Below are positions 7,432-30,718 of a stretch of 33,254 bases of DNA, in pieces. The position numbers were made by a program, and so were the translations under genes. Numbering within the stretch: the first letter of the stretch is position 1; each line of letters opens with the position of its first letter. The DNA is taken from NCBI GenBank assembly GCA_012520595.1, contig JAAYNZ010000090.1, positions 1 to 33,254 on the forward strand. Direction: 5' to 3'. The stretch comes from Candidatus Epulonipiscium sp. GTDB taxonomy: Bacteria; Bacillota; Clostridia; Lachnospirales; JAAYNZ01. The notes beneath the pieces were generated by a model. It searched no databases and was not told where the DNA came from. It saw nothing but the letters and a program-made list of their open reading frames with translations.

Positions 7432-7515
7432 AGTATATCGATATCCACATTCATAATTGAAAATAAGCCAATTGCTAAGCAAGTGCATAGTATCAGCAAA
7501 TACGTAACTTTTTAG
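7432..7515 (+). repeat. Intergenic element, copy A (truncated at the right end)
   Basis: Contains 'ccaattgctaagcaagtgcatagtatcagcaaatacgtaactttt', matching the cores of copies B and C; left end 'tatcgatatccacatt' resembles the terminal inverted repeat of copy B. Confidence 0.65.
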
Positions 7516-17303: not shown

Positions 17304-17495
17304 AAAAAAACATCTTCCATCCCATAAGGGACGAAAGATGTATCTTCCGCGGTTCCACCCTTGTTGATATGTAAAATACATATCCACTTTGGTTCTACTG
17401 CTCAAAAGTGCCCTTCTTCAAAGTGATTCATTGGGCTTCCACCTTCCCCAACTCGCTATACAATCTTTCTTTGAATACTCCTCTTTTTCATCGCA
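17304..17495 (-). ncRNA. T-box leader (glycine type) upstream of glyS, including its terminator
   Basis: Minus strand contains the T-box/antiterminator AAGGGTGGAACCGCGG (17348-17363), stem I elements (GCGAGTTGGGGAAGGTGGAAGCCCAATGAATCAC...), candidate specifier GGC at 17410-17412, and the terminator ACATCTTTCGTCCCttatGGGATGGAAGATGTTTTTTT. Confidence 0.95.
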
Positions 17496-17539
17496 ATTAT
17501 ATAATTTTAAATTTAATGTAGCAAATTTTCTTTCTTTTG

Positions 17540-19552: not shown

Positions 19553-19711
19553 TTTATAGATATACACATTGTAAGTCAATTACTAAGCAAGTACATATTC
19601 TCGGCAAATACGCCACTTTTGTCCTCCAATTGCTTCAAATGTAAAAGCAGGAGAGTGATATACGAGCTTACTGAAATTTTAGATTTTCAACATGGATATC
19701 TATATCGATGC
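19553..19711 (+). repeat. Intergenic element, copy B (full length)
   Basis: Core 'tactaagcaagtacatattctcggcaaatacgccacttttgtc'; hairpin CTCCaatTGCTT...AAGCAGGAG; imperfect terminal inverted repeats 'tatagatatacacattg' / 'caacatggatatctata'. Confidence 0.7.
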
Positions 19712-30237: not shown

Positions 30238-30555
30238 ATGAGAAAGACTCCTTTCCTGTGTTACATTTATTTTTAACAATAAATCGGATTATATGGGAAC
30301 TAATTTAGAAAGTCAAATCCTTGTAAAAAATTTCAAGTTAAGCACTTCTAGGATAAACAATACAAAAAAAGTGGGTCAATCCTTTACTAAATATTAGTAT
30401 ATTTAAGGATAATGATTATTACATAACTTTTGTTCCTATATTTTTTGTTTAATAATACTAAATTTTTACTAATCTTTTTAGCACTTAGTATAGAAAATAT
30501 TCATTATCCAGTTTTGCCCATTTTGACTTTTTTTAAACTTTTAATATTAAATTTA

Positions 30556-30718
30556 AAACCAAATAAGAAGCAAGTGAATATTATCGGCAAATCCCACTTT
30601 TGTCTCCCTGTTCTTTCCTGCTCTTATATTTGAGCAACAGGAGGGACAATCAGGGCGTGAGCCAATGAATATACACCTTGGGAATTTTGGATTATAACAT
30701 TGTATATCCATATGCTTA
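30556..30718 (+). repeat. Intergenic element, copy C (nearly full length)
   Basis: Core 'agaagcaagtgaatattatcggcaaatcccacttttgtc'; hairpin CTCCcTGTT...AACAGGAG with inner GCTC/GAGC; right part 'gggaattttggattataacattgtatatccatat' matches copy B. Confidence 0.68.

Follow-up and report, generated by a model that had tools for sequence, protein, structure and literature searches.

A Dispersed Clostridial Element with Exchangeable Arms and Tips, Very Probably a New Mosaic MITE Family

The stretch of DNA analyzed here (hereafter, the window) is 33,254 nucleotides long and belongs to Candidatus Epulonipiscium sp. (contig JAAYNZ010000090.1). An initial annotation, made from its letters only, disclosed three intergenic copies of a hairpin-bearing repeat and raised the question of whether the repeat is a MITE-like element or a structured RNA; a conserved CTCC/GGAG helix, flanked by a second helix that appeared to have changed in a compensated manner, was taken to suggest selection or transposition on a folded form. 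The evidence presented below indicates that the three copies very probably belong to a new MITE family, composed of two subfamilies, marked by extensive mosaicism and, apart from an unexpected polarity, of an ordinary kind.

The Three Copies in the Window

The three copies are real, with similarities far beyond chance, and lie close to the positions originally assigned to them, which could be refined to 7436–7512 (copy A), 19555–19704 (copy B) and about 30554–30712 (copy C), all on the plus strand. They share the same orientation, as already noticed, the c arm (one of the four arm types described below) being located on the left in each of them.

Copy B is complete and carries both terminal inverted repeats (TIRs), located at 19555–19570 (plus strand) and 19689–19704 (minus strand) and each matching the family repeat with one mismatch. 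It is a hybrid, in which a c/d-type left arm (78% identical to the c-arm consensus) is joined to a b-type right arm (97% identical to the b-arm consensus). The helix cited in the initial annotation corresponds to its tip hairpin (19622–19653, plus strand; CTCC..TGCTT paired with AAGCA..GGAG), whose 3' strand is located at the junction between the d tip and the b arm. The best non-self match of copy B in the genome is on contig C211 (locus L104), a d/b hybrid harboring the same tip junction, i.e., TTGCTTC(A/G)AATGTAAAA(A/G)C(A/G)GGAGAGTRATATAC.

The other two copies are incomplete. Copy A is a solo c-type end, consisting of the TIR TATCGATATCCACATT and most of the c arm (87% identity to the consensus, E 6e-23); its right side is truncated and stops before the tip. 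Copy C retains a c arm (matching consensus positions 33–94, E 3e-8), the tip hairpin and a d arm (81%, E 4e-18) with the right TIR; its left end has been lost, and a remnant of a b-g-c-d composite, joined at AAAACCAAATAAG, stands in its place. AAAACCAAATAAG is the tip sequence of this composite, of which locus L072 contains an intact instance with the same junction. When compared with a c:d copy located elsewhere in the genome, copies A and C gave E values of 2.5e-19 and 1.9e-22, respectively.

Copy Number, Ends and Boundaries

A search of the 2.52 Mb window genome with copy B as a query retrieved 41 places at E values up to 1, at least about 40 of them being strong matches (best non-self match, E 2e-19), so that the search for further copies proposed in the initial annotation had a positive outcome. 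At least 40 matches were obtained with a 68-base right-end consensus, and at least 38 with a complete c:d copy, representing the second subtype; the three counts (41, 40, and 38) are lower bounds. In total, 80 short genome stretches were gathered and about 60 loci were dissected. The copies are intergenic, a crude ORF caller having placed just 2 out of 62 module-bearing loci inside an ORF.

Intact copies are non-coding and mostly about 150–250 bp long (range about 135–270 bp), with the shape of a long imperfect hairpin, and no long ORF spans the element in those examined. They are bounded by nearly perfect TIRs of about 13–16 bp (TATAGATATCCACRTT); this end motif occurs 179 times in the genome with up to three mismatches, versus 95 occurrences for the reversed control, and paired ends were found at a spacing of 70–270 bp. 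The alignment of 82 ends revealed a sharp boundary at the terminal TATAGATAT (T1 93%, A2 95%, T3 100%), immediately outside of which the composition is that of the AT-rich background. No target-site duplication of 2–8 bp was found outside the ends, nor a convincing one over 2–10 bp; a signal at 9 bp was equalled by 6 out of 500 shuffles and is not significant over the nine lengths. It is possible that the terminal TA itself corresponds to a TA target duplication, with which it would fit.

The structure of the ends bears on the idea that the element might be a palindrome of the REP/REPIN kind, whose movement would depend on a tyrosine transposase of the IS200/IS605 type (RAYT). The hairpin form, the intergenic location, the possible strand bias and the lack of a visible long target duplication would all agree with it, but the element possesses true, nearly perfect TIRs with a sharp boundary and, at 150–250 bp, is not built from paired short REPs, which makes this reading very improbable.

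The median identity of the arms is 0.77–0.79, a value suggesting that the activity of the family is old; given the age of the copies (median arm identity of about 0.78), their present mobility appears doubtful.

Arms, Tips and Mosaicism

The dissection of the loci disclosed four arm types (a, b, c, and d) together with hairpin tips that can replace one another, of which e, f, g, and one or more further types were recognized. When the arms are read inward from the ends and compared with dinucleotide shuffles, a is complementary to b (z 8.7) and c to d (z 7.2). There is also similarity between a and c (z 4.5) and, to a weak degree, between b and d (z 2.4). All these z values are indicative, the core consensus strings having been hand-picked. 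Because of this similarity between arms, a:b and c:d elements might represent two diverged subfamilies of a single fold-back ancestor. Each of the two subfamilies has kept its own complementary tips, a finding compatible with fold-back descent and for which selection at the RNA level is not needed.

Spliced hybrids, in which arms and tips have been exchanged, recur at separate loci. In the longer copies (230–270 bp; e.g., loci L046, L049, L083, and L091 of the window genome, G000), two extra nested hairpins, with tips e and f, are located at the apex, which seems able to take in hairpin modules, with the outer arms remaining constant.

Folding and Covariation

The compensated change attributed to the helix next to CTCC/GGAG, i.e., TGCTT:AAGCA in copy B versus TGTT:AACA in copy C, does not withstand the assignment of the arms. 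The 3' strand of the helix belongs to the b arm in copy B and to the d arm in copy C, so that homology between the two pairs does not extend to both strands and the apparent covariation is a mosaic artifact, generated by comparing non-homologous arms. Within a single subfamily, i.e., in eight c:d copies, 90.7% of the cells pair, and two-sided changes affect 1 out of 33 pairs versus 0.9 in shuffles, a comparison of low power due to the few sequences; the covariation score of the same copies equals the shuffled mean, and with RNAalifold the covariation of the two subfamilies is close to zero. As far as eight sequences, with their low power, can tell, the fold looks inherited and decaying.

These data bear on the hypothesis of a cis- or trans-acting structured RNA family, maintained by selection on the fold. 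Some copies do fold better than their shuffles, clearly so in the case of copy C (z −3.4) and modestly in that of copy B (z −2.7 as a whole, about −1.1 to −1.4 without the first six bases), the fold of copy A being not significant; moreover, both subfamilies keep their pairing despite different tip sequences, and the orientation of the copies with respect to transcription is non-random (see below). Nevertheless, besides the absence of compensatory changes in excess of shuffles, hairpins unrelated to one another have freely swapped their tips, truncation affects many copies, a sister species lacks the element at each of the three window sites, and no Rfam family matches the five element loci searched at an E value of 0.1. 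The structured-RNA option of the initial annotation is, therefore, supported neither by the covariation counts nor by Rfam, and we consider it very unlikely. The sole Rfam match in the window lies elsewhere and is a T-box leader, a known family (RF00230, 104.8 bits; 17324–17500, minus strand).

Sister Species and Distribution

A second species of the same genus (G001), sharing about 77% DNA identity with the window genome, lacks the element at all three orthologous sites. At site A, the distance between the flanking matches is 113 bp in the window and 10 bp in G001, a clean empty site. The corresponding values are 190 versus 73 bp at site B, where the spacer has diverged, and 262 versus 181 bp at site C, where it is poorly alignable; the divergence between the intergenic sequences of both genomes prevents a base-exact definition of empty sites at these two loci. 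A 20-kb stretch of another contig was also tried for further empty sites, where synteny with G001 was too poor. The sister species harbors at least one complete a-g-b copy elsewhere (80% identical), whose flanks are common to none of the loci gathered from the window genome. Since all three sites are empty and the copies of G001 are located elsewhere, the data favor an insertion in the window lineage over a loss in G001, even though the latter is possible in principle.

Among 392 genomes of the order, matches were retrieved in the window genome and in G001, and in none of the approximately 390 other ones. No significant match was found in Defluviitalea phaphyphila and the four other nearest named genomes (selected by era), and plasmids, phages and viral contigs yielded no match at all. 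Within the sequences searched, the family is confined to a single, little-known genus of clostridia. The literature on Clostridia or Defluviitalea yielded no description of this kind of family, which is weak evidence of absence.

Orientation Relative to Neighboring Genes

Each window copy is embedded between two tandem minus-strand genes. The genes downstream had been correctly recognized as trmK (copy A), era (copy B), and a SleB-type cell-wall hydrolase gene (Hydrolase_2; copy C); the description of the copies as lying 5' of them was nonetheless incomplete, as each copy is equally located 3' of another gene, i.e., rpoD (A), an M16C/PreP peptidase gene (B), and a YkuD L,D-transpeptidase gene (C). 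The same arrangement prevails in the genome: with a simple ORF caller, both neighbors could be called for 33 copies, of which 26 have tandem neighbors, 4 divergent ones, and 3 convergent ones. In 33 out of 41 scorable copies (P 1.1e-4, two-sided binomial test), the b/d arm points towards the upstream gene, whose stop codon lies at a median distance of 23 bp; the orientation count takes in some solo ends with weak support. Several causes might account for this bias, since the directions of transcription and replication are confounded in such a genome and some of the solo ends are weakly supported.

One of them would be that the MITE has been secondarily kept in one orientation as an intercistronic or 3'-UTR mRNA element affecting the stability of the upstream transcript, as argued for ERIC, whose orientation matters for mRNA stability (PMC2229807). 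The polarity, the short distance from stop codons and the prevalence of tandem neighbors agree with this proposal, for which ERIC provides a precedent of an orientation-dependent effect (PMC2229807); yet, insertion with a polarity set by replication or transcription, or selection against the opposite orientation, could account for the bias equally well, and no terminator or promoter match was detected within copies B or C. We regard such a secondary role as unlikely. Similarly, there is just a small chance that the family is a transcription-polar MITE, inserted with a fixed polarity just 3' of stop codons between tandem genes, whose fold would act on upstream or downstream mRNA, or whose insertion would read the direction of transcription or replication, with mosaic arms being exchanged while pairing is kept. 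A role of copies B and C as intrinsic terminators or promoters was likewise considered and discarded, in view of the lack of matches mentioned above.

A complete copy of the sister species (locus L112, G001:C92, about 1497–1682) displays the same polarity as in the window genome: its b end overlaps what appears to be the stop codon of a nucleosidase/phosphorylase-like gene located upstream (GTATAATAGATATTC).

Comparison with Known Systems and Proposed Mechanism

The element is short and non-coding, with sharply bounded TIRs and fold-back arms; it is present in dozens of mostly intergenic copies, it gives rise to recurrent hybrids, and the sister species lacks it at the orthologous sites. These features bear out the MITE-like option of the initial annotation, and its closest counterparts can be sought among known elements of this form. 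The Correia elements (NEMIS/CREE) of Neisseria are likewise non-coding, about 100–155 bp long and provided with long TIRs having 5'-TA termini, and they exist in over 100 copies, with size variants due to an internal segment (PMC2229807, PMC10969869). They differ from the present family in the host phylum and in the TIR; unlike them, the present family comprises two subfamilies of arms, exchangeable tips of several kinds, and hybrids, with no known promoter or IHF motif. RUP of Streptococcus pneumoniae is also a small Firmicute MITE with TA-ended TIRs, present in about 110 copies and almost confined to S. pneumoniae and its close relatives (PMC2229807, PMC3049150); however, it has a uniform length of 107 bp and a candidate mobilizer, IS630-Spn1, whereas no IS630 was found here. 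The BOX elements of S. pneumoniae are similarly modular, variable in length, bounded by TIRs and able to fold back when transcribed (PMC3049150), but their variation derives from repeats of the boxB module, while in the present family whole arms and different tips are swapped. Lastly, ERIC/IRU of enterobacteria, a 127-bp palindrome with TA termini that is co-transcribed between genes (PMC2229807), is alike in form. On the whole, the family appears to match the TA-ended MITEs Correia, RUP, and ERIC in the way it works, and its modularity recalls BOX; the likeness concerns features rather than aligned sequences, and descent is not claimed.

Presumably, a transposase acting in trans cut or copied the elements by recognizing their TATAGATATCCACRTT ends and directed them to TA-containing intergenic DNA. 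The a:b and c:d subfamilies would have diverged from the fold-back ancestor suggested by the similarity of their arms; afterwards, arms and tips may have been exchanged between copies through recombination at short common stretches, and decay presumably followed. Copy B (a c/b hybrid), copy C (a c:d copy deprived of one end), and copy A (a solo end) would be the products of such exchange and decay. A derivation from IS630/Tc1 with an IS630-type partner was also considered and rejected, as neither G000 nor G001 contains a PF13358 match or a credible (above cut-off) NF033545 match, although multi-copy insertion sequences may go unseen in the draft assembly, which consists of 230 contigs. In this assembly, the same d/b hybrid copy is located at two contig ends (L085 on G000:C8 and L098 on G000:C140), and several further copies lie near contig ends, as expected if the repeats break the assembly.

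Conclusions

The data reported here document a high-copy and previously undescribed family, very probably of MITEs, in a poorly studied clostridial lineage. They also illustrate how two mosaic copies, when compared pairwise, can imitate covariation. The preference for facing upstream stop codons can be tested, and the copies of the element are likely to represent assembly-breaking repeats for the genus, several of them being located near contig ends.
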